A DNA stretch of 51,387 bases from assembly GCA_015488555.1 (NCBI GenBank), contig WFNO01000021.1:1-51387 (forward strand), read 5' to 3'. This document shows, piece by piece, positions 189 to 51,091 of the stretch; the first letter of the stretch is position 1; every line of letters starts with the position of its first letter. The translations under genes and the position numbers were made by a program. The stretch comes from Gammaproteobacteria bacterium. GTDB taxonomy: Bacteria > Pseudomonadota > Gammaproteobacteria > SZUA-140. A model generated the notes under the pieces. That model was given only the letters and a program-made list of their open reading frames with translations. It ran no database searches and was not told the DNA's origin.

Positions 189-538
189 GCGTCTGAACCC
201 CGGTATTCCGGGCCTTCCAGCCGGTTTAAGCGTACCTGGCCATTTCCGTTCCATCCCGACATCGGCCCGCTCTGGCTCTCTCTTTGGCCGATATTCTCTG
301 TGACTGGCTCTCGGAAACGTACCCAGCGAGTGCTGTTGTTACGCTTGCATGATCCTATTAAATCAATGGCTTAGAGGCGTGCCCCGGGTTTGATTTGATT
401 TCGGAAACCGATGCCGGAAAACCGGGGTGAACATCCAGGGCGCTTACTAGTGGGTATTCGTGTCGGGGTGACCAGGGCTGTCACCGTTGTGGCCACCATA
501 TTGCCGGTTTTGTCGATGAAAGGGTATGTTCGTTTAGC
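189..538. other. Intergenic region without a recognisable gene
   Basis: This 350-base stretch lies between the tRNA terminator and the end of the reverse-strand nuclease-like gene. Short open frames exist but none has a convincing ribosome binding site or a recognisable product. One plus-strand frame ends at 359-375 (LRLHDPIKSMA then stop) and could be the tail of a lost gene, but that is a guess. I see no tRNA 3'-end duplication that would mark an attachment site. Confidence 0.4.
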
Positions 539-2710: not shown

Positions 2711-2854
2711 GGTCGTTAGTAAAGCCCTGCCGGACTACACGTTAATACTTTAGGCTGGTGCCGCTCTGTCCCACTCTGGGCAGGAAAGCCCGAATAATGA
2801 TCATAACTGCATCCCCTAGGCTTAGCTATCAATCCTCAATTCTCTTTATTGGTT

Positions 2855-3265
2855 TCAGAACCCGAACTGCTTTCGCTGCAGTTCCCATAGGTGGGGAAAG
2901 GGATCCATGAAATCGGCCAAGGTCAGGTGGGCCGGGTGGGTGCTGTTGAGAATCGCTTCCTGGATGTCCGGGGCCAGCAGAGTCAGGCGCAGAATGCGCG
3001 AGGCGTAACTGGCGCTGGTGATACCCTCGTCTGTGGCGATCTCCTTGACGCTCTCGTACTTGCCCCTGACAAGCCATCGGTTCCAGCGGTGTGCCCGGAC
3101 CAGGGCGTTGATCAGCGTAACGTCCGCTTCCATGTTGCGGTCCGGGTTCACCGGCTGGCCCGTAGGTGAGAGGATGGTCTTGCGGCCAGAGTGGCGTCCC
3201 AGCTGGGCGGGGATGAAGATCTGGATCAGCTTACCGTCGCGGCTCAGGTTGATATTGGGTCTCAT
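2855..3265 (-). CDS. Small helix-turn-helix-like protein of the recombinase operon
   Basis: The 136-residue product has an apparent helix-turn-helix region around SVKEIATDEGITSASYASRI (near residues 73-92), followed by a hydrophobic helix. Its ATG overlaps the stop of the serine recombinase gene (ATGA at 3262-3265), so it is the last of four coupled cistrons. Small proteins like this are often seen next to DUF2924 and recombinase genes. It may help the recombinase bind or choose its site, but nothing in the sequence proves this. It is too different from Cox or Xis proteins to be named. Confidence 0.65.
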   Translation of the reverse strand: MRPNINLSRDGKLIQIFIPAQLGRHSGRKTILSPTGQPVNPDRNMEADVTLINALVRAHRWNRWLVRGKYESVKEIATDEGITSASYASRILRLTLLAPDIQEAILNSTHPAHLTLADFMDPFPHLWELQRKQFGF

Positions 3266-4608
3266 GCGCTCATCTCCTTTGTTTCCCGGACTGCGGCCTT
3301 GAGATCCAGCACCAGGCTGTTGATGCCGTTTGTCCGGATGTCGATGTGGACGCCCTCGGGCTCTACCCGGATCCTCTCAATAAAGAGTTGCAACAGCCGG
3401 GCCTGCTCCTTGTGGTAGAGATGGTCCCAGACCGTCTCAATGGACTGCAGCCCTTCACGCACATCCTCCTCGGTGATGCCCTCGTCCATGGCGACCGCTG
3501 CCTTCCAAGTGCTGACGATCATGGCGGGGTTCTTGAAGATGGCCTTGATCTGGTCGAAAACGATGCCCTCGATATCTGCAGCCCGTACCATGCGCACGGG
3601 GCACTCCTCATAGCCGCGCTTGTTGGCGGTATGGGTGACGTAGTAACGGTAGACCTTGTCGCCGCGCCGGGTGTGGGTGGGCGTCATCGCCTTGCCGTCC
3701 GGGCCATAGAGCAGACCCTTCAGCGGGGCCGCTGTTTTGCGCGCCGTATCCCGGGCGCGTTGGGTCCGGTCCTGGGCCATGATTGCATGGGCCTTGTCCC
3801 ACAGGTCCTGGTCGATGATGGCCTGATGCTCGCCCGGGTACCATTTGTCCTTGTGCCGGATCTCACCCAGGTAGATCCGGTTGTTGAGGATCTTGTAGAG
3901 GGTGGTCTTGTTGAAGGGATAGCCGTCATTCATCCGCCCGTCACGGCCGCGGCGGCGTTTGGTGCGAAAACCCTGGTCATTGAGTTCCTTGCACAGCAAG
4001 GTGGTGGAGCCCAGCCGGACAAAGCGGTTGAAGATGCGTCGCACAAGATCCGCCTCCAGGTCGTTGGGTATCAGCTTGCGACTGGCCACGTCATAGCCCA
4101 GCGGCACATAGCCGCCCATCCACATGCCTTTCTTTTTCGACAGGGCAATCTTGTCGCGTATCCGCTCACCGGTGACCTCACGCTCGAACTGGGCAAAGGA
4201 GAGCAGGATGTTCAACGTCAGTCGTCCCATGGAGCTGGTGGTGTTGAACTGCTGGGTGACCGAGACAAAGGAGACGCCGTGCTTGTCGAACAGATCGATG
4301 ATCTGGGCAAAGTCCCCCAGGGAGCGGCTGAGACGGTCCACCTTGTAGACCACCACCACATCGATTCTGTTGTTCTTCACATCGGCCAGCAACTGTTGCA
4401 GCCCGGGGCGGTCCATGGTGCCGCCGGAGATGCCGCCGTCATCGTAGCGGTTCGGCAGCAGCGTCCAACCCTCGTGCTTCTGCGAGTGGATGTAGGCTTC
4501 GCCCGCCTCCCGCTGGGCATCCAGCGAGTTGAACTCCTGCTCCAGGCCTTCTTCGGAGGATTTGCGGGTGTAGACCACGCAGCGGATCGGTTTCTTCTTG
4601 TCAGTCAT
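3262..4608 (-). CDS. Serine site-specific recombinase
   Basis: A 448-residue serine recombinase. The N-terminal resolvase domain begins with CVVYTRKSS near residues 10-18; the catalytic serine is probably S17. VDRLSRS near 93-99 is the conserved helix of the active-site region. A recombinase domain and a C-terminal DNA-binding part follow, giving a protein shorter than most large phage integrases (450-550 residues). It cuts and rejoins two DNA sites through a covalent serine link. It is coupled by ATGA overlaps to DUF2924 upstream and to a small HTH protein downstream. It is the only integrase-like enzyme in the window, so it is the best candidate for integrating the prophage, though the recombinase operon could be a separate mobile unit. 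Confidence 0.92.
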   Translation of the reverse strand: MTDKKKPIRCVVYTRKSSEEGLEQEFNSLDAQREAGEAYIHSQKHEGWTLLPNRYDDGGISGGTMDRPGLQQLLADVKNNRIDVVVVYKVDRLSRSLGDFAQIIDLFDKHGVSFVSVTQQFNTTSSMGRLTLNILLSFAQFEREVTGERIRDKIALSKKKGMWMGGYVPLGYDVASRKLIPNDLEADLVRRIFNRFVRLGSTTLLCKELNDQGFRTKRRRGRDGRMNDGYPFNKTTLYKILNNRIYLGEIRHKDKWYPGEHQAIIDQDLWDKAHAIMAQDRTQRARDTARKTAAPLKGLLYGPDGKAMTPTHTRRGDKVYRYYVTHTANKRGYEECPVRMVRAADIEGIVFDQIKAIFKNPAMIVSTWKAAVAMDEGITEEDVREGLQSIETVWDHLYHKEQARLLQLFIERIRVEPEGVHIDIRTNGINSLVLDLKAAVRETKEMSA

Positions 4609-5036
4609 TTGCTGCTCCTCGTCAGGCCGAAGAACAGCGGCCCCGACCAGCGGGTGCCGGTGATCTCCCGGGCGATTTGGGAAAGGCTGCGGTAGGTTCT
4701 ACCCTGGTACTCGAACCCGTTGCGGGTGACGGTGACGTGGTGCTCTATGCCTTGATACTCGCGGATCAACTTCGTGCCCACGGCGGGCCGCTTGACCCGG
4801 TTGCTGCTGGGCTTGAGCTGCTCCTTACTGCGTATCAGTCGATTGATGCGATCCTGCGCCTTGTCGGATAGGCCGCCGTAGGCCAGCTCCTGAATGCGCC
4901 AGGCCAGCCGCGGAATCAGGTAATCCCGCTTCTTACGAGGGGCCGGTTCGTCGAACAGCTCACGCCACAGCTTCTTCAGTTCATCATTTTCCAGTGAAGG
5001 CAGCGCTGCCACCTTGCCGATTACATCTGCGCTCAT
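4605..5036 (-). CDS. DUF2924 domain protein
   Basis: This 143-residue protein has the DUF2924 layout: an N-terminal helix with LKKLWRELFDEPAPRKKRDY, a middle AWRIQELAYGGLS, and a C-terminal basic portion ending LTRSSK with REYQGIEHHVTVTRNGFEYQ. DUF2924 genes are almost always next to serine recombinases, which suggests an accessory role in recombination, but the function is unknown. Start and stop overlap the neighbours by ATGA on both sides (5033-5036 and 4605-4608), so translation of all four cistrons is probably coupled. Confidence 0.88.
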   Translation of the reverse strand: MSADVIGKVAALPSLENDELKKLWRELFDEPAPRKKRDYLIPRLAWRIQELAYGGLSDKAQDRINRLIRSKEQLKPSSNRVKRPAVGTKLIREYQGIEHHVTVTRNGFEYQGRTYRSLSQIAREITGTRWSGPLFFGLTRSSK

Positions 5037-5218
5037 CGTTCATTTTCTCCGTTGTGATAACGGTCATGATGAACGCTTCCGGTGGGCGGGAAGTCCAGTG
5101 GAAAATCGCTATCTTTTCGTGATTCCAGGAGCCGGATTACACCAGCGGCGAGGATCTCGGCGACCTCGGCCGTCCGCTCCTCGTCAGAGAGTGCTTCCGC
5201 GGGTAGAAATGTTTGCAT
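5033..5218 (-). CDS. Small leader gene of the recombinase operon
   Basis: The first cistron of the recombinase operon encodes 61 residues with a helical segment DEERTAEVAEILAAGVIRLL (residues 12-31). Short proteins of this kind are common directly upstream of DUF2924 genes. The stop overlaps the DUF2924 start by ATGA. Its 3' end contains the motif GAAGCGTTCAT (reverse complement of 5069-5079), which recurs upstream of two other reverse-strand genes in the window. The function is unknown. Confidence 0.7.
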   Translation of the reverse strand: MQTFLPAEALSDEERTAEVAEILAAGVIRLLESRKDSDFPLDFPPTGSVHHDRYHNGENER

Positions 5219-5219
5219 T

Positions 5220-5263
5220 GCTTATCTTGGTAACTATTTGAAAATTCAAAATTTTTGATAAGC
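5220..5263. repeat. Nested inverted repeats before the recombinase operon
   Basis: GCTTATC (5220-5226) pairs with GATAAGC (5257-5263). Inside them lies a second symmetric element, TTTGAA-AA-TTCAAA. It begins one base upstream of the first start codon of the recombinase operon. An autoregulatory operator or a recombinase binding site are both possible. Confidence 0.55.
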
Positions 5264-5444
5264 GATATTGTGAGGAATGCTGCGGACTTCATCATCTCGA
5301 AGGAGCGCAATAACGAGTAGCGGTGTCGGTCAAATGTTGCAAATTAAAATCCAACGCATGCTAAACTGTGGAGGCAGAACATAGCGACGTGAGTGTGAAC
5401 TTGATGAGCTAATTTGCTGTAATTCTATTCTCCATATGCGCCGT

Positions 5445-5870
5445 TTATTTGTTTGTCTTATAAAAAGAGATTGTATTCACATGTGTCGCGTAACCAATGT
5501 CAGCATTTCTTGTAGCAAACGACACTTGCTGTTTATGGGTGCCACGGTACTCGGGCAATCTAAATTCCAAACGCTTTTTGTAGTGCGGCTCAATTTCTAA
5601 CCGCATTGCATCAGGGCCGATGTCTCTGCGACACAAGAAATGGTCTTCTGTCTGTGTGCCGTCCTTTTTGATGTACCGTAGGCCGATCACAAACGCATCT
5701 TGAATCGATGTCGGCATGGAAATATTTATTTGTTTCAGCTCTCCATCGTCCTGACGGATTTTGATTCCCTGTTGCAATAGCAAACCAAGAATTTCTTTCT
5801 CAAAATCAAGGCTGCTGCCATTTAGTCGACAGTTCCAGATGTGCTCAATTATGGAATACGCTTTATTCAT
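5445..5870 (-). CDS. Unknown protein downstream of PIN-like gene
   Basis: A 141-residue AT-rich gene. The frame stays open upstream to 5951, but I chose the ATG at 5870 (MNKAYSII) because the longer form would overlap the upstream gene's stop. It lies 43 bases after the PIN-like gene and is probably in its operon. The product has alternating charged and hydrophobic strands, with no recognised motif. It might be an antitoxin or partner of the PIN-like protein, which is inference from position only. Confidence 0.6.
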   Translation of the reverse strand: MNKAYSIIEHIWNCRLNGSSLDFEKEILGLLLQQGIKIRQDDGELKQINISMPTSIQDAFVIGLRYIKKDGTQTEDHFLCRRDIGPDAMRLEIEPHYKKRLEFRLPEYRGTHKQQVSFATRNADIGYATHVNTISFYKTNK

Positions 5871-5913
5871 TTTTTGTACCTGATGCCGCTTCAACGAAAA
5901 CCATCGGCTTAAT

Positions 5914-6915
5914 CTAGTTACTGGTGCCGTAGTACATAATCTTTGTGCCAACCCCTAGATACTCATAAGCGGCGGCCGTCTTCATTACCAAATCTTTGTC
6001 TCTGCATATCAGAATATGACAGAAAGATGCCAAACCAGCGTGCGTCATATCACTGAACGAAGCAACAAATCTGCGTGGCCTACTCATCCGCGAGTCGCGA
6101 TAATAGCCGAGGAAATTGAGCTGGTGATAAACGGCATTGACCTTCTCAAGAGTTGTTCGTTCTCTGTTGGCATCCGCTTCGAACGGCTGGGGCTTGATCC
6201 CAAAGAATGTTTCCAGGTCGAACTCGACGCCCTGGAAACTGACTTCAACAAGTTTCCAAATCTGGCGGACGACTTCGGGTGGCTTAATATTTTTCAGGAC
6301 CATTGGCCCTATGCCTGTGGATGCCTCGAACTGCCTGATGGCTGAATTCGGCTCTGCATCGAGTTTTTTCGAGACATAATTGTATTGTTCCTCCATGAAG
6401 TCGGGGAGCCTGCTGATGGCCTGCGACACCTCAAGTCGAGTTGCATCATCAAGGCAGGCAACATCTGTCAGTTCTTCCTCAAGGTCTTGGAACAACTGCC
6501 GCAACTCATCTGCCCCATCAGAAAGTATTTCACTAAATGATTGGTCTTTCCTGCCCCCGTAAAACTTCTGGAGTATACCGGTGAGGCCAAACCCTGAATC
6601 AGGTAATGAATCCACGTTATCAACATACATATCATACGCATCGTGCGGACTAATCTGTCGGATTTCAGCCCTACCTGTGTATTTGAATCCTTCGTCCATT
6701 ACAGGAACAAGATGACGAGCTCCAATGTTATCCAGAACGTCTAAAAATTGTTTCTCATGGCCGGTCGAGCGCTGGATTTCTGCCAAGTTTTCGTTGGAGA
6801 ATACTGGTGTCAGCTGTGTACGCTGCAAGAGATCACAAATACTGTCCGGGTCCCCTTTCATCATGAGATCCAGAACATTGTGATCCAGGTAGGCAAATAA
6901 GATGGGCTGGGTCAT
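5914..6915 (-). CDS. PIN-like domain protein
   Basis: The 333-residue product has features of a PIN-type nuclease split by a long insertion. The N-terminus FAYLDHNVLDLM puts an aspartate at residue 11. SNENLAEIQ supplies E42/E46, and the C-terminal ICRDKDLVMKTAAAYEY gives the last acidic residues near 304-306. PIN domains coordinate Mg2+ with three or four such acids and cut RNA. At 333 residues it is far longer than VapC toxins (about 130). It follows the ImmA/IrrE gene by 27 bases in the same operon. The base composition is richer in A and T than the phage core, consistent with transfer. The assignment is by motif only. Confidence 0.6.
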   Translation of the reverse strand: MTQPILFAYLDHNVLDLMMKGDPDSICDLLQRTQLTPVFSNENLAEIQRSTGHEKQFLDVLDNIGARHLVPVMDEGFKYTGRAEIRQISPHDAYDMYVDNVDSLPDSGFGLTGILQKFYGGRKDQSFSEILSDGADELRQLFQDLEEELTDVACLDDATRLEVSQAISRLPDFMEEQYNYVSKKLDAEPNSAIRQFEASTGIGPMVLKNIKPPEVVRQIWKLVEVSFQGVEFDLETFFGIKPQPFEADANRERTTLEKVNAVYHQLNFLGYYRDSRMSRPRRFVASFSDMTHAGLASFCHILICRDKDLVMKTAAAYEYLGVGTKIMYYGTSN

Positions 6916-6942
6916 CAGGTAGGTAGGCTCTGATTTATTAAG

Positions 6943-7842
6943 TTAAAAACCTCTCGAAAAACGATCAGAAATATCCTCCTCAGGTTCTTCATCCAGCTGG
7001 TTATACCCACCAATATCATCCAGCAGCAGTACGGTCAGGGTCTTCTCGTATTCTTCGGAATAGATGGTGTGTTCAACCACCTCCTCATCCTTGAACCAGA
7101 CACCAGAGCCGTGGCGAATACCATCCCGGGCGGTGAAGGAAAAGGACTGTTCCGCTGCCTGCGAATTGGCGGGGATTTCGATAGGGCCGCCACGAGTAGC
7201 AAAGTACTTACCAGATTTGAATGCCTTGTCGCTGGACTTCGCCCAGTGCATGTACCCGTCCTCAGAGAAAACGGCGATGGCCCGTTTGGAAGTGAATTCC
7301 AGCCAGCGCAGAACTGCCGAGGTAAGGGATACGTCATAGCGGTCCGCGCAATGCCCCAGCAGATCGAAACTGAACCGCACACCCTCAACCTGGTGGCGGA
7401 AATCATGAGCAGGCATCAACAAGCTGGCTGCGAATGCATTAGCTTCTTCTTCCTGCGCCACGTATCCGGAGTCGTAACGCAGCATGTCGTTGGTGCCGCA
7501 CTCGAAACCATCGGGACCAGCATCCATCCTGTGCAGCATATAGTGACCCAACTCGTGGGCAAGGGTAAAGCGGATCCGGCCGGTGTGCTCGATATTGGTG
7601 TTGTAGAAGATCCCCCAGCGGGGATTGGCTGGATCTTTGAGCAAAGCTCCTTCAAATTTGTTGAAGGAATGACCCTGCACCTCTGTGATTGGGTCGTCGT
7701 TGAACGAGGGCGTCAGCTCCAGGGCAACCTTTTTAACGTTAACCGGAAATCGCTCCTCAGGTGGGAGCGTGTCCAGGATATGAGTGATCCGGTTGGCCTC
7801 CTTGTGAGGTCGCTTCTTTTCGGTCACTTCTTCTTGCTCCAT
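6943..7842 (-). CDS. ImmA/IrrE family metallopeptidase
   Basis: A 299-residue zinc peptidase. The motif TLAHELGHYML has HELGH at residues 96-100, and the downstream EEEANAFAASLLMP near 131-144 supplies the third zinc ligand. ImmA-type enzymes cleave a partner XRE repressor in response to a signal such as DNA damage. The start overlaps the end of the upstream XRE gene by 19 bases, the usual ImmR-ImmA arrangement. The likely substrate is therefore that XRE protein. An alternative is an XRE plus ImmA toxin-antitoxin defence pair of the RosmerTA kind. The C-terminal 120 residues are not recognised. Confidence 0.9.
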   Translation of the reverse strand: MEQEEVTEKKRPHKEANRITHILDTLPPEERFPVNVKKVALELTPSFNDDPITEVQGHSFNKFEGALLKDPANPRWGIFYNTNIEHTGRIRFTLAHELGHYMLHRMDAGPDGFECGTNDMLRYDSGYVAQEEEANAFAASLLMPAHDFRHQVEGVRFSFDLLGHCADRYDVSLTSAVLRWLEFTSKRAIAVFSEDGYMHWAKSSDKAFKSGKYFATRGGPIEIPANSQAAEQSFSFTARDGIRHGSGVWFKDEEVVEHTIYSEEYEKTLTVLLLDDIGGYNQLDEEPEEDISDRFSRGF

Positions 7843-8147
7843 GCGTCGATAATGTCTTCGATCTTCTGCTGGTCCTCCTCATCCAGGCTCTCGAACTTGC
7901 GGAAGAACACCTCCCGTTTTACTTCGTCGGTAGGTTTTGTCATTCCATTATCCACCAAGAAATCAGTGGTTGTGTCCAGTGCGCGGGCGATGGCAGCCAG
8001 CTTTTCGGCAGAGGGGCGTTTTACTCCCCGATTCTCAATCTCCCAGATATAGCTCTTGCCCGAGCCAATCTGCTCTGCGAGTTGCTCAAGTGTCAGTCCC
8101 TTGGCCTTGCGCAGCTCTTTTATCTTAGCCCCTAACAGGTTGGCCAC
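7824..8147 (-). CDS. XRE family repressor
   Basis: This 107-residue protein starts at a GTG preceded by GGAGGAGAG. Residues 6-62 form a cro/CI-type helix-turn-helix (IKELRKAKGLTLEQLAEQIG). The acidic and lysine-rich C-terminus (SLDEEDQQKIEDII) is short and has no LexA-type autocleavage domain. Removal by the neighbouring ImmA-like peptidase is therefore the plausible inactivation route. The gene is divergent from 8289 across a region holding two opposed promoters and symmetric AAGTTCA elements, which are probably its operators. It is the only obvious repressor in the prophage and so a candidate lysogeny regulator. Confidence 0.9.
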   Translation of the reverse strand: MANLLGAKIKELRKAKGLTLEQLAEQIGSGKSYIWEIENRGVKRPSAEKLAAIARALDTTTDFLVDNGMTKPTDEVKREVFFRKFESLDEEDQQKIEDIIDAWSKKK

Positions 8148-20005: not shown

Positions 20006-20106
20006 TCATGGCGTAGCCATGAGGACCACGGGTCCTTCCTAGCCATCCATGCGGTGCGGGGCGCAAGGCCGCCGCGTTTCGCTAGCGACAGACCCGAAAA
20101 ACGGGT
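20006..20106. repeat. Hairpin array D, leader of ParB-methyltransferase gene
   Basis: TCATGGC-GTA-GCCATGA (20006-20022) is followed directly by AGGACC-ACG-GGTCCT (20022-20036), then TCGCTAGCGA, a perfect palindrome (20079-20088), and ACCCG-AAAAA-CGGGT (20092-20106). The GTA loop is shared with array A. The array fills most of the 5' leader between the terminator and the ATG at 20148. Confidence 0.7.
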
Positions 20107-20147
20107 TCGCAGGTTCGCGGTTCGCACTCAGTTCTCAAGGTAATCGA

Positions 20148-21446
20148 ATGCAAACGACCTCTATCGAAACGGTGGAGCACTGGCCGCTCCAGCGGCTGAT
20201 CCCCTATGCGCGTAATGCGCGCACCCACGATGATGGGCAGGTGTCGCAGATCGCCGGTTCGATTGCCGAGTTCGGTTTCGTCAATCCGATCCTGGTTGGC
20301 GATGACAATGTCATCATTGCCGGACACGGCCGCTTGATGGCCGCGCAACAGCTGGGGCTGGAACAGGTGCCGGTAATCGTGCTGCGCCATCTTACTGAAG
20401 CGCAGCGCAAGGCTCTGGTGATCGCCGACAACAAGATCGCCGAGAACGCCGGTTGGAATGAAGATCTGCTCAAACTCGAGTTGACCGAAATCCAGGAACT
20501 GGGATTCGACCTTGATGTCATCGGTTTTTCTGATGAGGAACTGGATGAGTTGCTGGCGGTCGAAGATGAAACCGGACTTACCGATGACGATCAGATCCCG
20601 GAGCCCGAAGAACAGGCGATCAGTCAAACTGGTGATCTCTGGCTGCTTGGTGAACACCGCCTGCTCTGCGGCGACGCCACCAAGCGCGAAGATTTGGAAC
20701 AATTGATGGAGGGTGAGTTGGCCGACATGGTCTTCACCGATCCGCCTTACAACGTGGACTATGGCAACTCCGCCAAGGACAAAATGCGCGGCAAGGACCG
20801 GCGCATTCTGAACGACAATCTTGGCGAAGGCTTCTATGGTTTTTTGCTGGCGGCGCTTGCTAATCTGCTCGAAGTGACCAAAGGCGCGTGCTACATCGCC
20901 ATGTCATCCAGCGAGCTGGACACGCTCCAGCAGGCGTTTCGTGACGCCGGCGGCAAATGGTCCACCTTCATCATCTGGGCCAAGAACACCTTTACCTTGG
21001 GACGTTCCGATTATCAGCGCCAGTACGAGCCCATTCTCTACGGCTGGCGCGAAGGCGTGGACCACTTCTGGTGCGGTGCGCGCGATCAGGGGGATGTCTG
21101 GTTCTTCAACAAACCGGCCAGGAACGATCTTCACCCCACCATGAAACCGGTGAAACTGGTCGAGCGTGCGGTGCGCAATTCCAGCAAGAGCCGGGATATC
21201 GTATTGGACCCCTTTGGCGGCTCGGGCAGTACCCTGATTGCTTGCGAGAAGAGCGGCCGCCAGGCGCGCCTGATGGAGCTGGATCCGAAGTACGTTGATG
21301 TGATCATCCGGCGTTGGCAGGACTACACCGGCAACAAGGCCGTTCTCAAAGAAACTGGACAGGATTTTGACGAGACGACTTCGGAACGGTTGATGATTGG
21401 TGGAACAGAAGAAGCCCAAGCACCCGTTGAGGTGCCTGAGCAGTAA
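20148..21446 (+). CDS. ParB-like domain fused to DNA methyltransferase
   Basis: A 432-residue fusion. Residues about 10-110 form a ParB/Srx-type domain (LIPYARNARTHDDGQV, GFVNPILVGDDNVIIAGHGR). The rest is an amino-methyltransferase of beta order: motif IV TDPPYNVDYG near 197-206 precedes motif I LDPFGGSGST near 353-362. It probably methylates adenine or N4-cytosine to protect phage DNA or regulate genes. The ATG at 20148 has AAGG nine bases upstream. The leader is full of hairpins (array D), so its translation may be controlled. No partner nuclease is adjacent. Confidence 0.93.
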   Translation: MQTTSIETVEHWPLQRLIPYARNARTHDDGQVSQIAGSIAEFGFVNPILVGDDNVIIAGHGRLMAAQQLGLEQVPVIVLRHLTEAQRKALVIADNKIAENAGWNEDLLKLELTEIQELGFDLDVIGFSDEELDELLAVEDETGLTDDDQIPEPEEQAISQTGDLWLLGEHRLLCGDATKREDLEQLMEGELADMVFTDPPYNVDYGNSAKDKMRGKDRRILNDNLGEGFYGFLLAALANLLEVTKGACYIAMSSSELDTLQQAFRDAGGKWSTFIIWAKNTFTLGRSDYQRQYEPILYGWREGVDHFWCGARDQGDVWFFNKPARNDLHPTMKPVKLVERAVRNSSKSRDIVLDPFGGSGSTLIACEKSGRQARLMELDPKYVDVIIRRWQDYTGNKAVLKETGQDFDETTSERLMIGGTEEAQAPVEVPEQ

Positions 21447-42309: not shown

Positions 42310-42789
42310 ATGCGCCACATTACCCAAGAAGGGTTTGATCTCATCAAGCGGTTCGAAGGGTTCAGTCCCACGATCTACATTTGCCCGGCTGGCTACCAGA
42401 CTATCGGCTATGGACATGTGGTTCGCGAGAATGAGCGAGACCAGCTCAAGAGTGGCATCGATGAACAGCAGGCAGAGGAAATTCTCCGGCGGGATATCAC
42501 TTTGGCCGAGAGGGGTGTACTCCGCCTCATTGACGTCCCTCTTTCTGACAGTCAGTTCAGCGCGCTAGTGTCATTCACCTTCAATTTAGGGGTAGGGGCG
42601 CTGCAGCGCTCTACCCTACGGCAGAAGGTGAACCGGGAGGAGCACCACGAAGTGCCACGAGAGTTTATGCGCTGGACATGGGCGGGAGGCCGGCGTCTGA
42701 AGGGATTGGAACGTAGGCGAAACGCGGAAGCTGAATTGTATGGGGCTAACAACGTCGGGAGTGGGAACATCACCGCTCAGCCTAGGTAG
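42310..42789 (+). CDS. Endolysin, GH24 lysozyme
   Basis: A 159-residue lysozyme. The catalytic triad spacing of T4 is kept: E16 in LIKRFEGF, C25 in YICPAGYQT (Asp in T4) and T31 in YQTIGYGHV, with 8 and 5 residues between them. It cuts the glycan backbone of peptidoglycan. No signal peptide, so release depends on the holin. No spanin genes follow; the downstream R-M system is cargo. Confidence 0.95.
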   Translation: MRHITQEGFDLIKRFEGFSPTIYICPAGYQTIGYGHVVRENERDQLKSGIDEQQAEEILRRDITLAERGVLRLIDVPLSDSQFSALVSFTFNLGVGALQRSTLRQKVNREEHHEVPREFMRWTWAGGRRLKGLERRRNAEAELYGANNVGSGNITAQPR

Positions 42790-42854
42790 ACCTGATTATA
42801 ACTGGGTGATAAAGTATATAAATCATTCACTTGCTACAATAAGGGTCAAGCGCT

Positions 42855-44243
42855 GTGTGCTCGATGAAATCAGGGAAACTACCTGGGAAAACCAAATTCT
42901 CTGGCCGAAGACGAGCAGCTACCCGACGCTCAGGTTTTAGCAGTCACCCAGAATCCACCGGGGGTGAATATAAAGAGCTTATTCTCCCCACCATACATCT
43001 CTCCTCTGGAGACACCGTTACTGTCAGATTTACCGTTCCAGAGCATTCATCTGGTGAACTGGTGGGTTATGGTGGCTGGTTTTTGGCACCAGATACTGTA
43101 GACGTAAAAATCGAGGGCAGTCCATTTCGTCGACATACCCTAGTCCCACCATGTGCGCCTAACTGGAGTAAGTTCGGATCAATGTGGATCTCCGAATCAG
43201 GGGACTCTTTTGATGTTACAGCAACTTTTTCTGCAAAGGCAGAATCAGATATCGCATTTTATGAGCTGGCTTGTGGAATAATCAAACACCGTCACTATGA
43301 TAAAGCCCGCCCAGAACTGTTGAGAAATATGTATCAATTCTCTCCTGAGGCCCATTTTTTCCAAACAAATGGCGATGTAACCATACACGCCCCAAAGGAT
43401 AACGGCGATGAGGCCATTTTACACCTGAAATCCTGTAACAGATGCGCAAGATTTTTACCTGTCAATTTTGATGATGAGTTAATCCATTTAAGCTTTACGA
43501 ATCACTGTAAAGCCGAACACCGAAGGCCATGTTCTCATACAGGTTTTGGTAGGTTGCTTAATATTGATACAGGCGAACGAATCCAACTGGAATATGGATT
43601 CCAGCTTGAGTGCCGATTCTGCAAGAAATTTGAAGTAAACGCAGCCCACAATCCACAACGCACTGCTGCTCAGATGAAAGAGGATGGTGCTCGACGTAGG
43701 GCATTTGAACTGCTATTGACTGAACTTTATCAAGGCAGTCCACAATTACGATATCGGCATCAAACCGGAGGACGTGAGCTTGCTGATGACATATGGGATA
43801 AGTTTGACAGAAAATGTTTTAAGTGCGGGGAGCCACTCAATAACCCAAAAGAAATGCATCTCGATCACACGCGTCCGTTAGCATTGCTTTGGCCTCTTGA
43901 TGAAACTGCAACCTGTCTTTGCGGATCATGTAATTCTGCTAAGCGTGACCGTCCTCCAGCATCTTTTTATACTGCGAAAGAGCTAAAATCGCTTTCTGAG
44001 ATCACAGGCATTCCTCTCGATGAGCTAAAAAAACCAAGCCCAAACATTGAAGCAATCCAGATGCTTGGTAAGCGATTAGATTGGTTTTTTGATGAATTTT
44101 GCAGACGCCCGGAGCTAACTAAAGAGAGAGATGGGAAAGTTGCAGTAGAACTCCTTCTTAAAGCACTTCAAAAAGCGATCAACAAATGCCCCGATGGGGC
44201 ACCTTTCGACATAATTAAAGAATATAAGGTCAGACAAAGGTGA
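42855..44243 (+). CDS. HNH restriction endonuclease candidate
   Basis: A 462-residue AT-rich gene. CxxC pairs at 194-197 and 253-256 suggest zinc binding. The HNH core runs from CFKCG (321-325) through LDHTRP (336-341) to CGSCNSAKRD (356-365), with N360 as the HNH asparagine. It faces a large DNA methyltransferase convergently, stops seven bases apart, so it is the likely restriction partner. GTG at 42855 has AAGGG nine bases before it; ATG at 42864 is possible. A -10 TACAAT lies at 42835. Recognition sequence unknown. Confidence 0.75.
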   Translation: MCSMKSGKLPGKTKFSGRRRAATRRSGFSSHPESTGGEYKELILPTIHLSSGDTVTVRFTVPEHSSGELVGYGGWFLAPDTVDVKIEGSPFRRHTLVPPCAPNWSKFGSMWISESGDSFDVTATFSAKAESDIAFYELACGIIKHRHYDKARPELLRNMYQFSPEAHFFQTNGDVTIHAPKDNGDEAILHLKSCNRCARFLPVNFDDELIHLSFTNHCKAEHRRPCSHTGFGRLLNIDTGERIQLEYGFQLECRFCKKFEVNAAHNPQRTAAQMKEDGARRRAFELLLTELYQGSPQLRYRHQTGGRELADDIWDKFDRKCFKCGEPLNNPKEMHLDHTRPLALLWPLDETATCLCGSCNSAKRDRPPASFYTAKELKSLSEITGIPLDELKKPSPNIEAIQMLGKRLDWFFDEFCRRPELTKERDGKVAVELLLKALQKAINKCPDGAPFDIIKEYKVRQR

Positions 44244-44250
44244 CTAAGAG

Positions 44251-46959
44251 TTAATCCCGCCTCACCAAAAACAGGTATTGATGTGCTTTTGTTGCACCTT
44301 GGTCTTTTAACCCAAATTTCTCGCTACCAACTACACATTCATCAAAATAGTAGGCGACTTCAAAATACGGATTGCAATGTGTAATCAGCTCCTCAACCAT
44401 ATCATGCTTCTTCGTTTTACCTAGATGCATGATCACAATCCCTTTTGGCCTCAACCATTGATAACACTTCTTAAAGAAAATGGAATATATATCAAATGAC
44501 GACTTTTGCCTGTGTTCTACAAAGCGTTCCTTTCTAGTTGAAAAATCTTCCGGCTCCCATCCTGACATCCACAAGCGCATCCAGTTTGCAATGTAGAACC
44601 TAGTTGACGCAGCGAAAGGCGGTGATGTAATAACGGCATCTACAGTACCACGATAATTAAGATCTTCAAAACTACCAAAACTCGCTTTTCCAGAAAGAAG
44701 TTTATCATTATGGTAGCTTGCCAGTACCCGCGAGACCTTATCTTCTAGCCGAGTTTTTATATCACGATATTCGAATTCACCTTGTGGTTTAAGGGGGGTA
44801 ACTGGATGCGATCGACGCGAAAGAGAATACGGTCTGTTCCCATGCAAAATATGCAATAGTGATGAGTAAACTAGCGCTCTCTCTGTTGATGTGCATGAAT
44901 TCTCCAACATATAACGCCTGGCAGCCAAAATCTCTTTAAATGTTCTCTCGTGAAAATATTCACTTAATTTTCCATTAAAACCAAAATCACCATACTTTAC
45001 TGAATCTTCTTGGTTCCAATTTTTTTCTATAAAACCGAGCAGATTCTCCAGCTCGCGAAGCACTAGCTGACTTTTTGGTTTGCGTACTTTGGAAGAACTT
45101 AAAATGAAGCCAAGTTCTTGAAGGTCATTCGCATATGCTTTTCTGCCAGTTAAAAATGCTTCCAATGGAATTGTTCCAGCACCAGACATGGGGTCAAGCA
45201 CAACGTCACCTGGCTTTGTAAAGTTAGTTACTAAAAAATGCGCAATAGCAGGCTTAAGCTTCCCTTGATATGAACAAAGCGAATGCAAGGGATGCCCCCA
45301 GTTTCTAGATGAATAGGGCGCATTTCTGTGCGGCAGCCCATCTTCAAAGCATTTTGCAATCCTCCTTAACTCCTTTGCTTTTGTTGATGTTGGCGTTTTA
45401 TGCTTAATCGGTACAGCCTTGCCATTGTACTTCGGCTTTTTTAGAACAAGCAGGACTTGTTTCAGTGGTGTTCCATCTTTCGAAGCTCTTTCTCTTACAA
45501 GTTCAATGTGTTCGAGACTAAGCCCGACTTCCTGAGCAATCCTTTCTAAAAAGATATCAGTTGGGACATGCACACCTGCAAACTTGGAGTCGCCAATGTC
45601 AATGATTGCTCGACCACCTTTGGCAAGAAGTCTATAGCAGTTCCCCAACCAAATCTCAGCGTCAGAACAATAGCGCCTTACTAGCTCTGGAATTCGCTTA
45701 TCATAGGCGACCTCATCAAGCTCCTTTGCGACTATTTCCACAAAGTTATAGGATTTTCTATCGCGCCCATTTTTAGATACATTATTTATTCCTGCTGTAA
45801 CCGCAAGACGGGTAAACCGCCCAAGATCTTTCTCAGAATCTATGCACCCAGTAAGCCATAGCTCAATTTTTGTATTACGAAAATAATTTGTTCCATTTAG
45901 GTAGGGTGGTGATGTTACGATCAGATCAAATGAACTATCTTTGGGTATATCAGCAAGTGCATCCTCACAGATACATTCCACTGACTCCATTTCGGATAAT
46001 GAAGGATCAATGTCATCGATAATGACCTTGATTTTATTCTTATAGCATTCAAACACACTAAAATTATCTGGTAGTAACTCCTTCGGCTTTCGGTACCGAA
46101 GGTCTGCCGCACGCTTAAGCTCACTGCATTGTACAGCGATACTTCCTAACGCAAGGAGAGCAAGGTGTCGGAAATCTTCATTATTCCCGACATGAAGAAT
46201 TGCGTTCCGTAAGGACAAAATCTCAATAAGTCTTTGCCTTTCAAAATATAACCGTCCTGAGAAAGCATTGTTTAACTCATGCTTTGCCTCCTCATACGGA
46301 ACTAAGTTATTCTGAGCATATTCGATAATGTCCGAGAAAAATGAAGAAAGTGCATCACGCTGATTTGAGACTCTACGCAGAACATTCGTTTTACCTTCAA
46401 TAACTAACCGCATAAATGGGTTAATTTCTGCATATGCACTCCGTAGACCCATTAATGCTCCCACAGTCATTGTGGTTCCTGTTCCAGCGAATGGATCAAA
46501 AACTGAATGTGCCCCATTGCCCCACTTAGAAATGAGTTCACTGACAAATGTAGCAGAGAATCCTTCAATATATGGGTACCATCGATGGATAGATTCGAGA
46601 TGATTCGGAGAGAATGTTCCATGTCTTCCTAGCGATGTAGCTTCCGGAAACAAGCCTAGTTGCTTGTTAGTATTATTTGTTAGCAATCTCATATTCATTG
46701 ACTCATTCTCAAAAGCTCGTTTTAGGAGCTTTGTGGCAATTTGTGATATTGGGATCTGCACCGTGACAGATTCATTTCTGAGCTGAGAGTAAGTCCGGTG
46801 TAATAAAGATCGGATTTCCCGACTTGAAAGCGCAGATAACCATTTTACAAAGTTATCGTCATCAGGATTCAATGAAATTCTTAAGCGCTCGATTTGTCCT
46901 GTGCCGGATTCATGCCGTGGATAGCTAATGGTTTTGTACATTTCCAGATCCGTGTACAC
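44251..46959 (-). CDS. Tandem-domain DNA methyltransferase
   Basis: A 902-residue enzyme with two complete methyltransferase domains. Domain 1: motif I DPFAGTGTT (155-163) and motif IV TSPPYLNGT (349-357). Domain 2: DPMSGAGT (589-597) and TSPPFAAST (778-786). TSPPY/F points to N4-cytosine methylation, and the I-then-IV order with a gap between them suggests a target domain within. Two domains in one chain are typical for asymmetric sites, one per strand. The start is GTG at 46959 or ATG at 46941. AT-rich, so acquired. Confidence 0.9.
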   Translation of the reverse strand: MYTDLEMYKTISYPRHESGTGQIERLRISLNPDDDNFVKWLSALSSREIRSLLHRTYSQLRNESVTVQIPISQIATKLLKRAFENESMNMRLLTNNTNKQLGLFPEATSLGRHGTFSPNHLESIHRWYPYIEGFSATFVSELISKWGNGAHSVFDPFAGTGTTMTVGALMGLRSAYAEINPFMRLVIEGKTNVLRRVSNQRDALSSFFSDIIEYAQNNLVPYEEAKHELNNAFSGRLYFERQRLIEILSLRNAILHVGNNEDFRHLALLALGSIAVQCSELKRAADLRYRKPKELLPDNFSVFECYKNKIKVIIDDIDPSLSEMESVECICEDALADIPKDSSFDLIVTSPPYLNGTNYFRNTKIELWLTGCIDSEKDLGRFTRLAVTAGINNVSKNGRDRKSYNFVEIVAKELDEVAYDKRIPELVRRYCSDAEIWLGNCYRLLAKGGRAIIDIGDSKFAGVHVPTDIFLERIAQEVGLSLEHIELVRERASKDGTPLKQVLLVLKKPKYNGKAVPIKHKTPTSTKAKELRRIAKCFEDGLPHRNAPYSSRNWGHPLHSLCSYQGKLKPAIAHFLVTNFTKPGDVVLDPMSGAGTIPLEAFLTGRKAYANDLQELGFILSSSKVRKPKSQLVLRELENLLGFIEKNWNQEDSVKYGDFGFNGKLSEYFHERTFKEILAARRYMLENSCTSTERALVYSSLLHILHGNRPYSLSRRSHPVTPLKPQGEFEYRDIKTRLEDKVSRVLASYHNDKLLSGKASFGSFEDLNYRGTVDAVITSPPFAASTRFYIANWMRLWMSGWEPEDFSTRKERFVEHRQKSSFDIYSIFFKKCYQWLRPKGIVIMHLGKTKKHDMVEELITHCNPYFEVAYYFDECVVGSEKFGLKDQGATKAHQYLFLVRRD

Positions 46960-47050
46960 CTCAACTTAAGAAGGTAATTTACCATAATGAACGTTAGTTA
47001 CCAAGCCCAATGGTAATCATCCCTTTTTTAACCGACGCCAAAAGTAGAGA

Positions 47051-47875
47051 TCATGCTGCTACCAGCATGTGTTTTGGCGGTAAGCCACCATTGGCCTTAT
47101 TGGGCCGTTCATGATTGTAAAACCAAAGCCACTGTGTCGCATAGTTCTGCACCTCTTCGAGTGACTCGAATTGGTACTGGCTCAACCAGCTGTAGCGTAC
47201 TGTACGATTGTAACGTTCGACGTAGGCATTCTGTTGTGGGTTACCGGGTTGGATGAATTCGAGCTGGATGCTGCGTTCCTTAGCCCATCTCTCCAGTTCC
47301 CGACTGATGAATTCCGGGCCGTTGTCACAACGTAGCCGCTCGGGTTTGCCGCGCCATTCGATGATCTGATCCAGTGCGCGTGTAACACGTTCTGCGGGTA
47401 GCGAGAAATCGGCCTCAATACCCAGTCCCTCTCGATTAAAATCATCCAGCACGTTGAACAAGCGAAACGTGCGACCATCGCTCAGTTGGTCATGCATAAA
47501 ATCCATGGACCAGACTTGGTTGGGGGCATCCGGCACGGCCAGCGGTACCGGCTTTTCCCGCTGTATGCGCCGCTTCGGCTTGATTCTCAGGTTCAACTCC
47601 AGTTCGCAGTAGATCCGATAGATACGCTTGTGATTCCAGGCAAAGCCTTTGACGTTGCGCAGATAATCGCGGCAAAGACCGAAGCCCCAGTCCTTCTGGT
47701 TGTGCGTCAGCCGGATCAGCCAATCGGCAATCTCTTCGTTTTCATCTGACAAGACCGCCTGGTATCGATAGCAGGTCTCGCTGATAGCAAAGGCCTGGCA
47801 GGCCACACGAATGCTCAGGCCCCGCTCCGATACCGCCTTTTTGGCCATCTCTTTGCGATGAGATGGCCTCACCAC
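47051..47875 (-). CDS. IS3-family transposase OrfB (DDE)
   Basis: A 274-residue integrase-core region in the -1 frame relative to OrfA. The catalytic triad is visible in [16 protein letters not shown] and NAYVERYNR, and HTH_21 segment [20 protein letters not shown] lies in front. The frame is open to 48055, but the functional product starts after the frameshift ([15 protein letters not shown]). The end PKHMLVAA lies inside the left end of the element. Confidence 0.9.
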
Positions 47876-48135
47876 TTTTTTGCCAGTGCCTCCTGGACAA
47901 TCTCGGCCTTCAGCCGCTCCTCGGCGTACATTTTCTTCAATCGCCGGTTTTCCTCCTCCAGCTCCTTCATGCGTTTCATCATCGAGGCATCCATTCCGCC
48001 GTATTTGGCTCGCCATTTGTAAAAGGTTGCACTGCTCATACCGTGCTCCCGGCACAGGGCCGGCACCGGGGTGCCAGCCTCAGCTTGTTTCAGGATCGCC
48101 ATGATTTGGCTGTCGCTATATCGTGATTTTTTCAT
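47869..48135 (-). CDS. IS3-family transposase OrfA
   Basis: An 88-residue protein with the helix-turn-helix [20 protein letters not shown] and a leucine-zipper-like helix. AGGAG precedes the ATG. Its end AAAKKW-stop contains A AAA AAG (47881-47875) for -1 slippage into OrfB. Confidence 0.92.
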
Positions 48136-48208
48136 GCAGAATCTCCTCTTGCGCTATTATGAGAAAATTCTACTTCTGATGTCAGCTAATTTTCGGGGTG
48201 ATTACCCA

Positions 48209-48445
48209 ATGCACGCAGACAAAGCATATTTTTCATGCCTAACTTGTGCCTATAAGCCCTTCAAATTCCGGGGGTTTCGTCGGCAGCCTGGGTAGAAACT
48301 CAAATGCAAGTTTTCTCATCGGCCATTATTTGAGGCAGCCGATATAGTAGTCGGGCTTGGAGTTTCAAGTATGGATGGGTGAGCCCTTCGCTCCACGAGC
48401 GATCAAGGGAAACATCGCTGTCGCTTTTGTTGCTCGAACTGTGTA
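48209..48445. other. Intergenic region between IS and P-loop gene
   Basis: No gene recognised in this 237-base stretch. A short plus-strand frame at 48209-48295 (CLTCAYKPFKFRGFRRQPG) could be the tail of a gene cut by the IS, but this is unsupported. A nested hairpin CCCTT...TCGCT-CCACG-AGCGA...AAGGG occurs near 48388-48413 and could end transcripts. Confidence 0.4.
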
Positions 48446-50737
48446 TTACTCCAGCGTGATATTTAGCTCTTGGCACACTTCTTCAACTAGCGCCAACACC
48501 TCATGGAGGAACTTGTTTCGGTCTGGTGATGGTGTCAGGTCGGGCACAGGGGCAGCCTTGTCGTAGATATCTTCTGCAATAATTTCAGCGCGGGTGAATG
48601 TAGAGCCCTTGCCTGACTGGTTGAATGCCTCCTGCCATTCATCTGACCTTTCTATCCATACTCTGCGGCTGGCAAACTCAAGTAGTCGACCTGTAAGTGC
48701 CGATGAGAATTCATCATAGATCTGTTGCTGGCTGTCCTCATCGGGTTCATCGCCTATCCACCGAATAGGCTCCTGGATCGTCACATAGATCAGTTCGCCG
48801 AGTTGCTTATGCAGGTCGGATACTGGCATTAGGTTGTCGTACTGATCTGCCCAGCCATTGGCGAGGCGTCGGCTGAGTGCTTTAACCCGCGTCCAATGCT
48901 CTTTGTTGATTCCAGATTTGTATTTCAGGCCAAGTCGAGGGAGCCATGCCTCATGGAACTGGTCTGCCGCTTCTCTGATGGCGAGCGCCAGATTCATTCG
49001 GTCATAAACAGGACGCGCCTCGACAGGTTCCGGGCGCTCCACAATCTGGTCAATGGCGGTAAGGAGTGCTTTTAACTGCTCAATACTGCGCTTCCCGCGT
49101 TTCTTTTTCGGGTCAAGAACCTTGTCGATGCCTCCGAGAAAAAAGCAGTGTTCAGCTAATCTAGCTCTGAGCGCGCGCTCTGCGTTTGGACCAAGATCCT
49201 CGCCAAGACGTGTCATAACGTTCTCCGCCGAGGCAAGGACGTGTTCTCGCTTTGCGGAAACGGTCGGTAGGTTGTCACCCTTTACTTCGTCGAAATGGGT
49301 GAAGCACATTAGAAGCTTCTTAGTATTGCCGGTTCGGACAATGGAGCGTAGAGCCGCAACTGGCGCTTCTTGCATTGGCTGAGCGGCATTATCAACAAGG
49401 ACTACAGCATCTGCCATGTCGATGCGGCGAAGCAGATTAGTAGAAAGGCTGGATGACGAGTCCGGAGTGTGCCCAAGACCTTCACCATCGACAATAACTA
49501 ATGGTTGTTTTGAATCTTCAGCCCAGAGTGGAAAGAAAGGGCCTTTTACACGAATTCCATTAACCAGAGGCGTCAATAGCGTGCCAAACAGTGGGGCATG
49601 GTTGCTAGAAAATCGAAGGATCTCTTTGATGAAGGTATTTCTATCCGAAGAAGAAAACTCCCAAGAGATCGGCCACCCCTGCTTGTTTTTTCGAAAGGAT
49701 CCTTTGTGAAGCGCGGAAAAGCGCAACTCGATTTCATCCATGAGTTCATCCGCGATGGCATGGTATTCTTCATCCTGTCTAAGCAGGCGATCGAGTTCTT
49801 CCTCAAAGAGTTCATCGACAACGCGTTGGTCCGATTCTTCGGTCGCATCAAGTTCGGCTTTTAGTCTTGTGCCTTGGTTGATCGCTATCTCGCGTGCGCG
49901 GTTAACTGCACGGATAAGCAAATCATTGGTTCGGTTAAGATCAAGGCTGTCCGGTGCCTCGGGGGCGATTTCTGGTTCACTTGAATTCAGATCTTCCTCA
50001 AAGTCGTCTTCGTCCTCATCTTCGTCATCCAGATCATCCTCTGAGATAGGGCCATTTCCGAGTACATAATTAAAGCGCATACGTTGGTCTACATGCTGGA
50101 GCAGGCTTCGAAGCACATCGGAATCAGACTTCCCTTGGTATGCAGTCAGCACTGCTTTGGAGATACATTCCTCTAGATAGTCTCTTACCTCGTCACGTTC
50201 CATAAAGGTGACAACCGATTGATAGTCTCCCTCGGCAACGATGATTTCTGTATCCGCCACCGTGGTCTTCGCAGTGGAGGTCGACGGAAATCGCTCTTTC
50301 ACTGGGTGTGTGCCAATGATCTGGCGAAGTAGCGTCGTTTTACCAGCACCTGTTGTGCCAAGAAGTAAAGCCGACCTGTAATCCGAATTATCTGAAGATG
50401 GAATGGGAATTACTTGTTCCCGCACATCCATGAAATCGGTAGGTTGAGGCACGATATCGTGGAAAAAGATTTCAACAATACGTGTGTCAAATCGCCCGCG
50501 AGCAGTTTCTTGAGCGCCTATCGTCCAATAATCGGAGTTGGCGAGTAACTCGTTCATTTGGTCTACGAGCTGATTGGCTTCGTTCTCATCCTTTGTACCT
50601 AGACCGGCTCGGACGCGCCGACCTGGCTTGCCAGTGTTGGGATCCTTTCTCACCGGGTGACGAAAGATGATTGAATAGCTTTGCCGGCCTTGAGTCTTGC
50701 TCAGACTGGCCTTGTAGGGTTTAGAGACTGTAGGCAT
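48446..50737 (-). CDS. P-loop GTPase-like protein with integrase arm-like N-terminus
   Basis: A 763-residue protein. Residues 1-65 (SKTQGRQSYSIIFRHPVR, GKPGRRVRAGLGTKDENEAN) resemble the arm-type DNA-binding domain of tyrosine integrases. The P-loop domain has G1 GTTGAGKTT (127-135), a switch-I-like STSTAKTT (152-159), G3 DGEG (417-420) and G4-like THFD (480-483); NKxD is absent. An acidic patch (EDDLDDEDEDEDDFEEDL, 233-250) interrupts it. The C-terminal 250 residues are helical and unrecognised. GGGAGG lies six bases before the ATG. It follows an AlpA-like gene; its promoter lies between inverted GTTGTTCC repeats. No tyrosine recombinase core is present. Defence or element maintenance is a guess. 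Confidence 0.8.
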   Translation of the reverse strand: MPTVSKPYKASLSKTQGRQSYSIIFRHPVRKDPNTGKPGRRVRAGLGTKDENEANQLVDQMNELLANSDYWTIGAQETARGRFDTRIVEIFFHDIVPQPTDFMDVREQVIPIPSSDNSDYRSALLLGTTGAGKTTLLRQIIGTHPVKERFPSTSTAKTTVADTEIIVAEGDYQSVVTFMERDEVRDYLEECISKAVLTAYQGKSDSDVLRSLLQHVDQRMRFNYVLGNGPISEDDLDDEDEDEDDFEEDLNSSEPEIAPEAPDSLDLNRTNDLLIRAVNRAREIAINQGTRLKAELDATEESDQRVVDELFEEELDRLLRQDEEYHAIADELMDEIELRFSALHKGSFRKNKQGWPISWEFSSSDRNTFIKEILRFSSNHAPLFGTLLTPLVNGIRVKGPFFPLWAEDSKQPLVIVDGEGLGHTPDSSSSLSTNLLRRIDMADAVVLVDNAAQPMQEAPVAALRSIVRTGNTKKLLMCFTHFDEVKGDNLPTVSAKREHVLASAENVMTRLGEDLGPNAERALRARLAEHCFFLGGIDKVLDPKKKRGKRSIEQLKALLTAIDQIVERPEPVEARPVYDRMNLALAIREAADQFHEAWLPRLGLKYKSGINKEHWTRVKALSRRLANGWADQYDNLMPVSDLHKQLGELIYVTIQEPIRWIGDEPDEDSQQQIYDEFSSALTGRLLEFASRRVWIERSDEWQEAFNQSGKGSTFTRAEIIAEDIYDKAAPVPDLTPSPDRNKFLHEVLALVEEVCQELNITLE

Positions 50738-50761: not shown

Positions 50762-50845
50762 TGTTGTTCCGGCGTTGTTCCTAAATTAAATAATACACCC
50801 GGTTTTCTCCCTGTCAAGGGAAAATGGAACAACGTTGGAACAACG
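50762..50845 (-). promoter_or_regulatory. Promoter between inverted tandem GTTGTTCC repeats
   Basis: Minus strand: TTGACA (50817-50812), 16 bases, TATTAT (50795-50790). The right element GGAACAACG-TT-GGAACAACG (50826-50845) lies upstream of the -35, and its inverse TGTTGTTCC-GG-CGTTGTTCC (50762-50781) just after the start site; 17 of 20 positions match. Probable operator. Confidence 0.75.
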
Positions 50846-50887: not shown

Positions 50888-51091
50888 TTAGTTAGAATAG
50901 GCGGCGTTTTGGGGGCCTGCTGATAGGCCTTTCTGTTCAAAGGCTTCGACATCTGCCAGTCTGTAACGAACCGTGTAGCCCAATTTGATGTAGACGGGGC
51001 CCTCTCCGATGGATCGCCAGCGCTCCAGGGTACGTTCGCTCAGGGCCCACCGTTGGGCCAGTTGCTTTTGGGTGAGTAGTTCATCAGCCAT
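50888..51091 (-). CDS. AlpA-like helix-turn-helix protein
   Basis: A 67-residue MerR/AlpA-type protein (LAQRWALSERTLERWRSIGE, YTVRYRLADVEAFEQ). It resembles the 11435 product across most of its length. AGAGGA lies eight bases before the ATG. Such proteins regulate or excise integrative elements. No tyrosine integrase is visible next to it, though one could lie beyond the window. Confidence 0.85.
   Translation of the reverse strand: MADELLTQKQLAQRWALSERTLERWRSIGEGPVYIKLGYTVRYRLADVEAFEQKGLSAGPQNAAYSN

Follow-up and report, generated by a model that had tools for sequence, protein, structure and literature searches.

A large GTPase of mobile elements with a predicted integrase arm-like domain and paired repeats around its promoter

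The window, by which we mean the whole 51,387-nt stretch of DNA analysed, contains a gene for a large GTPase preceded by a promoter flanked by repeated sequences, with a gene for an AlpA-like protein upstream and an insertion sequence (IS), a methyltransferase gene and a nuclease gene downstream (Table 1). A sequence-only reading of this DNA had described an integrase arm-like domain fused to a GTPase-like protein without a tyrosine recombinase core, lying beside a restriction-modification (R-M) system, an IS and an AlpA-like gene. All three neighbours could be located, with the R-M genes at 42855-46959, and the open reading frame is genuine and intact, being conserved over its full length in more than 100 relatives.

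Table 1. Features of the GTPase gene and its surroundings in the window.
Feature	Coordinates	Strand	Basis
AlpA/excisionase-like HTH gene, upstream neighbour, probably outside the module	50888..51091	-	HTH_17, 7e-7; phrog_66, 3.8e-9
Upstream operator pair GTTGTTCCAACGTTGTTC, 11-bp tandem repeat	50827..50844	-	The 2.35-Mb genome has just two exact tandem matches, of which this is one; conserved in the family
Promoter TTGACA-16-TATTAT, between the operator pairs	50790..50817	-	Agrees with the consensus at 11 of 12 bases
Downstream operator pair GTTGTTCCGGCGTTGTTC, inverted with respect to the upstream pair	50763..50780	+	Between the -10 box and the start codon; second of the two genome matches
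763-aa GTPase with N-terminal integrase arm-like domain	48446..50737	-	Intact ORF with ATG start; full-length relatives across phyla; AlphaFold2
N-terminal arm-like predicted DNA-binding domain, residues 1-70	50528..50737	-	Topology; profile search; hhalign
G1/P-loop GTTGAGKT, residues 127-134	50336..50359	-	5 of 8 positions invariant, 2 more at least 90 % conserved (61 members)
Switch-I-like (G2) FPSTSTAKTT, residues 150-159	50261..50290	-	Near-invariant among family members
G3 DGEG (DxxG), residues 417-420	49478..49489	-	D417 and G420 invariant (61 members)
G4-like THFD, residues 480-483	49289..49300	-	H481 and F482 invariant; conservation of 90 % or more at T480 and D483 (61 members)
IS3-family insertion (orfA/orfB), separating the GTPase and methyltransferase genes	47051..48135	-	IS3-type transposase ORFs, by reading
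Two-domain DNA methyltransferase, same strand as the GTPase	44251..46959	-	MTase_II, 2.6e-83
HNH/endonuclease VII-like nuclease, converging on the methyltransferase gene	42855..44243	+	phrog_1035, 5.8e-8

The single protein from the window gave weak P-loop matches in Pfam (AAA_22, 2.9e-5; Dynamin_N, 0.03) and likewise in NCBIfam and PHROGs, as well as weak matches to mad8 (2.4e-5) and LeoA (3e-4) in PADLOC; no model naming it was found in these four libraries. A recombinase catalytic core is indeed absent, with zero Phage_integrase matches in Pfam, NCBIfam and PHROGs. The GxxGxGKT, DxxG and THFD motifs recognized in the earlier reading are all present and conserved in an alignment of 61 diverse members, where GTTGAGKT, FPSTST.KTT, DG.GLGH and FTHFD are near-invariant and FRHP and R.GLGT are hallmarks of the N-terminal domain. 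Profile matches among these members (MMR_HSR1 in 43 of 61 and Dynamin_N in 16 of 61, with E ≤ 0.01; AIG1 in 5 of 61) assign the protein to the TRAFAC-type GTPases. An AlphaFold2 model built from the 61 sequences (mean pLDDT 89.6, pTM 0.89) has a helical C-terminal half, and its best Foldseek matches in the PDB are bacterial dynamin-like proteins (SynDLP at 4.8e-7, the C. jejuni DLP pair, IniA and BDLP), followed by mitofusins and Toc34. Since the TM-scores to dynamins do not exceed 0.25 for the whole protein, it is probably the GTPase domain that carries the dynamin match, and only the relation of this domain is secure. Motifs, profile matches and the top Foldseek matches together establish the presence of motifs G1 to G4 and of a GTPase fold of the dynamin superfamily.

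The window GTPase shares the P-loop/DxxG/TxxD GTPase with bacterial dynamin-like proteins (SynDLP, the C. jejuni pair, IniA, BDLP and DynA), but differs from them in a long helical stretch inserted between motifs G2 and G3, in the predicted DNA-binding domain at its N-terminus and in having no hydrophobic stretch long enough for a membrane anchor. No strongly hydrophobic segment was found in it (maximum KD19 of 0.84), in a scan that paddles without a transmembrane segment escape. DynA from B. subtilis delays lysis, thereby protecting against phage (PMC8844932). The weak LeoA match, the AIG1 matches and the link to defence are also reminiscent of Eleos/LeoA and of immunity GTPases of the AIG1/GIMAP type; unlike Eleos/LeoA, however, the window GTPase is a single gene, with no LeoBC partner seen, and has a DNA-binding-type front and an operator.

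Residues 1-70 are predicted by AlphaFold2 to adopt a beta-beta-beta-alpha topology (strands 11-14, 21-31 and 38-45; helix 51-66), with block-mean pLDDT values of 82-97 from residue 21 onward. A profile of these residues compared with 249 genomes retrieved two family genes first, followed by weak matches, and we extracted 17 loci from this search for checking. In six of these, the match fell within residues 1-45 of an intact frame of 350-384 aa (loci L138, L139, L140, L148, L157 and L160), and all six frames code for tyrosine integrases (Pfam Phage_integrase, 1e-12 to 1e-40); Pfam matched nothing in three further long frames. In hhalign comparisons, the domain scored 70.9 % against independently chosen N-termini of DUF6538 integrases and 95.3 % against the six retrieved integrases, a value biased by their having been selected with the profile of the domain itself, while column-shuffled controls reached a maximum of 6-7 %. 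The resemblance is invisible to Pfam in the window sequence by itself. Pfam searches with single N-terminal domains returned only DUF6538, at 0.03 and in one relative, and a PDB sequence search gave no matches. Likewise, a 100-residue model of the domain alone found nothing significant with Foldseek in PDB or BFVD, so the relation to integrases rests on sequence profiles and topology. The proposal that this front resembles integrase arm-binding domains therefore held for the predicted topology, the profile search and the shuffled controls, and did not extend to a significant match among solved or viral structures; we consider it likely that the domain is related to the arm-binding N-termini of integrases.

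In the window, the gene strand reads GTTGTTCCAACGTTGTTCC, TTGACA-16-TATTAT, GGAACAACGCCGGAACAAC, ribosome-binding site and ATG, and the centres of the two operator pairs are separated by 63 bp, about six helical turns. The 2.35-Mb genome of the window contains the tandem pair at two places, both of them at the GTPase promoter. In the promoters of arm-bearing members, TTGACA/TATAAT is flanked by two tandem pairs of GTTGTTCC, each with a repeat of 10-11 bp and the two pairs inverted with respect to each other. A tandem pair was found in 57 of the 74 non-redundant arm-bearing members (61 of 74 for both orientations), in none of the 11 members that lack the N-terminal domain and in 0.4 % of random segments. 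Of 76 regions upstream of arm-bearing members, 73 accommodate all four half-sites with up to nine mismatches in 32 bases, most of them with three or fewer; the spacing within the left and right pairs agrees (10/10 in 47, 11/11 in 18, mixed in 3). In these relatives the centres of the pairs are on average 62 bp apart (sd 2.5; 57-66 bp in most), and 63 of 68 have a TTGAC-like hexamer 5-10 bp past the upstream pair. Exact matching of the tandem pair over 1.69 Mb of loci gave 85 positions, 84 of them no more than 400 bp upstream of a family gene; the last one, at -423, lies in front of a small gene that precedes the family gene. In Azospirillum (L005, 13563-13653), the operator precedes a small DUF4258 gene upstream of that for the GTPase, suggesting that both are co-transcribed, and there is a third downstream repeat. 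We also examined co-evolution of operator spacing with the length of a hairpin loop in the N-terminal domain, which has 14 residues in 17 of 18 members with 11-bp spacing and in 5 of 46 with 10-bp spacing; this correlation mostly follows clade and was not counted as evidence.

The domain and the repeats together recall tyrosine integrases (lambda Int class; IntS of KplE1), with which the protein shares the beta-beta-beta-alpha N-terminal domain, the R..G/S..GT.....EA signature and tandem arm-type-like sites. Nevertheless, it has neither a core-binding nor a catalytic recombinase domain, the GTPase part following the N-terminal domain instead, and its sites flank a promoter, whereas those of integrases form the attachment site.

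The operator could also be used to find the gene. A protein-blind scan of 2.9 million viral contigs identified the four-site array in nine, and all nine hold the GTPase; for one of them, the slice L187 does not itself show the GTPase frame, which follows the operator in L094, from the same contig. The 10-bp four-site array was present in one of 398 genomes (G359), 16 bp from a family gene that had been found independently through its N-terminal domain, and a reversed control pattern had no occurrence in the same genomes. Counting members by domain and operator, 69 have both, 12 have the arm-like domain and no operator, and 11 have neither. Thus, about 12 of 81 arm-bearing members have no recognizable operator directly upstream; in L005 and L049 it is located further upstream. 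A tree implies about four changes, all losses, of the N-terminal domain, and of the four independent comparisons two agree with a link between domain and operator, none disagrees and two show no difference; with so few independent losses, phylogeny alone gives no significance for that link.

These distributions bear on who binds the repeats. The AlpA-like HTH gene directly upstream in the window would be a natural candidate for a regulator acting there, as would a host factor, leaving the arm-like domain for another use such as gripping foreign DNA. However, AlpA-like genes occur in only three others of ca. 100 loci, in varying places, whereas the operator is found across phyla, is missing from members without the arm domain and, in the 2.9 million viral contigs, accompanies solely the GTPase gene. 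We thus regard binding by another regulator as quite improbable; because AlpA-like genes are rare in relatives, they are also rejected as a meaningful partner of the GTPase. It is still less credible, to the point of being very hard to sustain, that this is an ordinary housekeeping-type P-loop protein resembling integrases by chance. Such a protein would explain the weak P-loop matches of the single sequence in Pfam and the empty Foldseek search for the N-terminal domain; nevertheless, the profile searches with shuffled controls speak for a relation to integrases, the operator is tied to the domain, the spread across phyla is patchy and on mobile and defence loci, and the operator-first scans have already largely refuted this explanation.

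Positions 2855-42789 of the window hold a prophage with genes for a portal, a major head protein, a tape measure, a baseplate hub and a lysozyme, together with a serine integrase (3262-4608, minus strand) and a ParB-methyltransferase fusion (20049-21446). This prophage runs into the nuclease-methyltransferase pair and then the GTPase gene. A phage contig (L092, ca. 60 % identical) likewise carries the GTPase gene and a related methyltransferase gene in the same direction and a nuclease gene converging on them, followed by phage lysozyme and tail genes; the order and orientation of lysozyme, nuclease, two-domain methyltransferase and GTPase are the same in its positions 310-7925 as in 42310-50737 of the window. 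From the adjoining prophage and this phage-borne cassette, the GTPase gene is probably prophage cargo. The nucleases of the two cassettes are seemingly unrelated (PLD-like by reading in L092, HNH in the window), as if restriction enzymes had been swapped in place. No IS was found between GTPase and methyltransferase in L092, and the IS of the window is not a conserved partner; the view that it belongs to the system is not supported.

The shared arrangement of both cassettes, together with an HsdM gene directly downstream of the GTPase in L012, would also be expected if the autoregulated promoter timed the expression of an adjoining methyltransferase in the fashion of a C-protein. Most members, however, have no methyltransferase downstream, and known C-proteins are small HTH proteins without NTPase domains, making a controller of the R-M operon a rather improbable role for this protein.

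Plasmid-borne members neighbour MmeI-like and type I R-M systems, BREX, AbiE, DGQHR proteins and helicases. A fixed partner gene was sought and none recurs, the only widely shared neighbours being phage genes of one Rhodobacterales group. In this group (L074, L078, L094 and L097-L106), the GTPase lies amid phage structural genes, with neighbours that include DUF6441 and, by reading, tape-measure-like and large terminase-like genes, and with a conserved minus-strand gene directly downstream. At a threshold of 1e-15, 104 near neighbours matched 251 PADLOC families, against five for 104 control proteins from other genomes of the phylum of the window; the figure of 251 overstates the number of defence genes, because one methyltransferase matches many models, and defence genes are nonetheless enriched among the neighbours. 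Plasmids, phages and this enrichment support the association with mobile elements and defence islands that the sequence-only reading had anticipated. Membership in MADS, the methylation-associated defence system, was considered and rejected. The GTPase, the AlpA-like gene and the methyltransferase do match mad8 (2.4e-5), mad1 (2.4e-4) and mad2 (1e-16), respectively, but these are weak single-gene matches that do not amount to the mad1-mad8 set, and no other MADS genes were found among the neighbours examined; moreover, the methyltransferase lies far below the cut-off of the NCBI MAD2 model (15.9 of 720 bits) and fits type II models far better.

A search of genomes yielded 116 contigs from many phyla, and 80 of these were retained; the N-terminal domain is present in most of the relatives, and most derive from genome and metagenome-assembled genome (MAG) contigs. 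An alignment query identified the GTPase in 15 IMG/VR contigs and was needed for this, a single-sequence query giving zero matches in such a viral scan, and the GTPase was not found among 50,697 phage records. Among 72,556 plasmid records, 11 hold the gene; their products are full length in alpha- and betaproteobacteria and lack the first ca. 100 residues in Rhodococcus.

The occurrence on some plasmids and the combination of promoter-flanking tandem repeats with an NTPase bearing a DNA-binding-type front raise the main rival explanation, a maintenance or partition module in which a single NTPase binds centromere-like repeats around its own promoter and helps the element to persist. ParA from P1 is an NTPase with an N-terminal DNA-binding domain that represses its own promoter, as we propose for the GTPase, and parC from R1 has direct repeats around the par promoter. 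However, the GTPase is dynamin/TRAFAC-like, and not ParA-, ParM- or TubZ-like; its NTPase class and DNA-binding fold differ from those of P1-type ParA, and no ParB- or ParR-type partner recurs. Additionally, there are four half-sites only, and plasmids account for just those few records among relatives derived mostly from other contigs. We therefore consider a ParA-like maintenance role unlikely.

The reading that we favour, and hold to be rather probable, is that of a self-regulating GTPase of phages, plasmids and genomic islands, whose arm-like domain represses its own promoter and whose effector part likely acts against phages. A precedent is IntS, which represses its own promoter, overlapping its arm-type sites (PMC2951348), and co-option of an integrase-type domain for a similar autorepression of the GTPase gene appears most likely from the sequence comparisons. 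Strong sequence evidence suggests that the N-terminal domain, of the kind that binds arm-type sites, would bind the tandem GTTGTTCC repeats on either side of its promoter. Since the two pairs are 57-66 bp apart in most relatives, a single oligomer could bridge them, excluding RNA polymerase or looping the promoter, and the gene would be held low in the resting cell. Release through GTP binding or hydrolysis, oligomerization or an infection signal might then open the near-consensus promoter. The GTPase and helical parts, with their dynamin/septin-like fold, would constitute the effector for the carrying element; to judge from fold and context, this putative effector is likely anti-phage. The idea of an integrase regulatory front coupled to an NTPase effector is thus supported as regards the related domain and the tandem sites flanking the promoter, and for defence it stays inferential.

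If this is correct, a large GTPase unrelated to recombinases has taken over one of their DNA-binding modules as its autoregulatory switch, and operator and domain are tied so tightly that the operator alone finds the gene among millions of viral contigs. The family is widespread, alongside restriction systems on phages and plasmids, and unnamed in the libraries searched. In the literature searched, mostly without subscription papers, we came across neither a protein nor an operator of this type; the component parts are of known kinds, and their combination and the operator appear undescribed. The four-site operator makes regulation directly testable and offers a handle on the trigger.

In Actinomadura and relatives, the arm-like front is swapped for an ASCH/PUA-like domain (L055, 9533-10006; L062, 10322-10795; L067, 9536-10009; L083, 8294-8761), whose only PDB matches are to the ASCH domain of ASC-1, at an E value of 0.09; these members have no operator. 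The replacement suggests that N-terminal sensor modules may be interchangeable on the GTPase, and the existence of arm-like, absent and ASCH-like N-terminal domains on one GTPase suggests a modular sensor-effector design. More tentatively, and as a possibility that we would not yet favour, the family might form a new class of immune GTPases that consist of a single gene and silence themselves, in which an integrase-derived front silences the gene via a looped four-site operator and also senses infection, with ASCH-like sensors replacing it in some actinobacteria; sensing would presumably involve the GTP state or removal from the operator.

Partial copies of the gene were also observed. In another genome of the same class (L002, 1501-1614), a remnant comprising only the last 38 residues, 84 % identical, lies next to genes for an excisionase-like HTH protein and a type I R-M methyltransferase, and L032 and L033 contain an 80 % identical 3′ part of the GTPase gene at a contig end.
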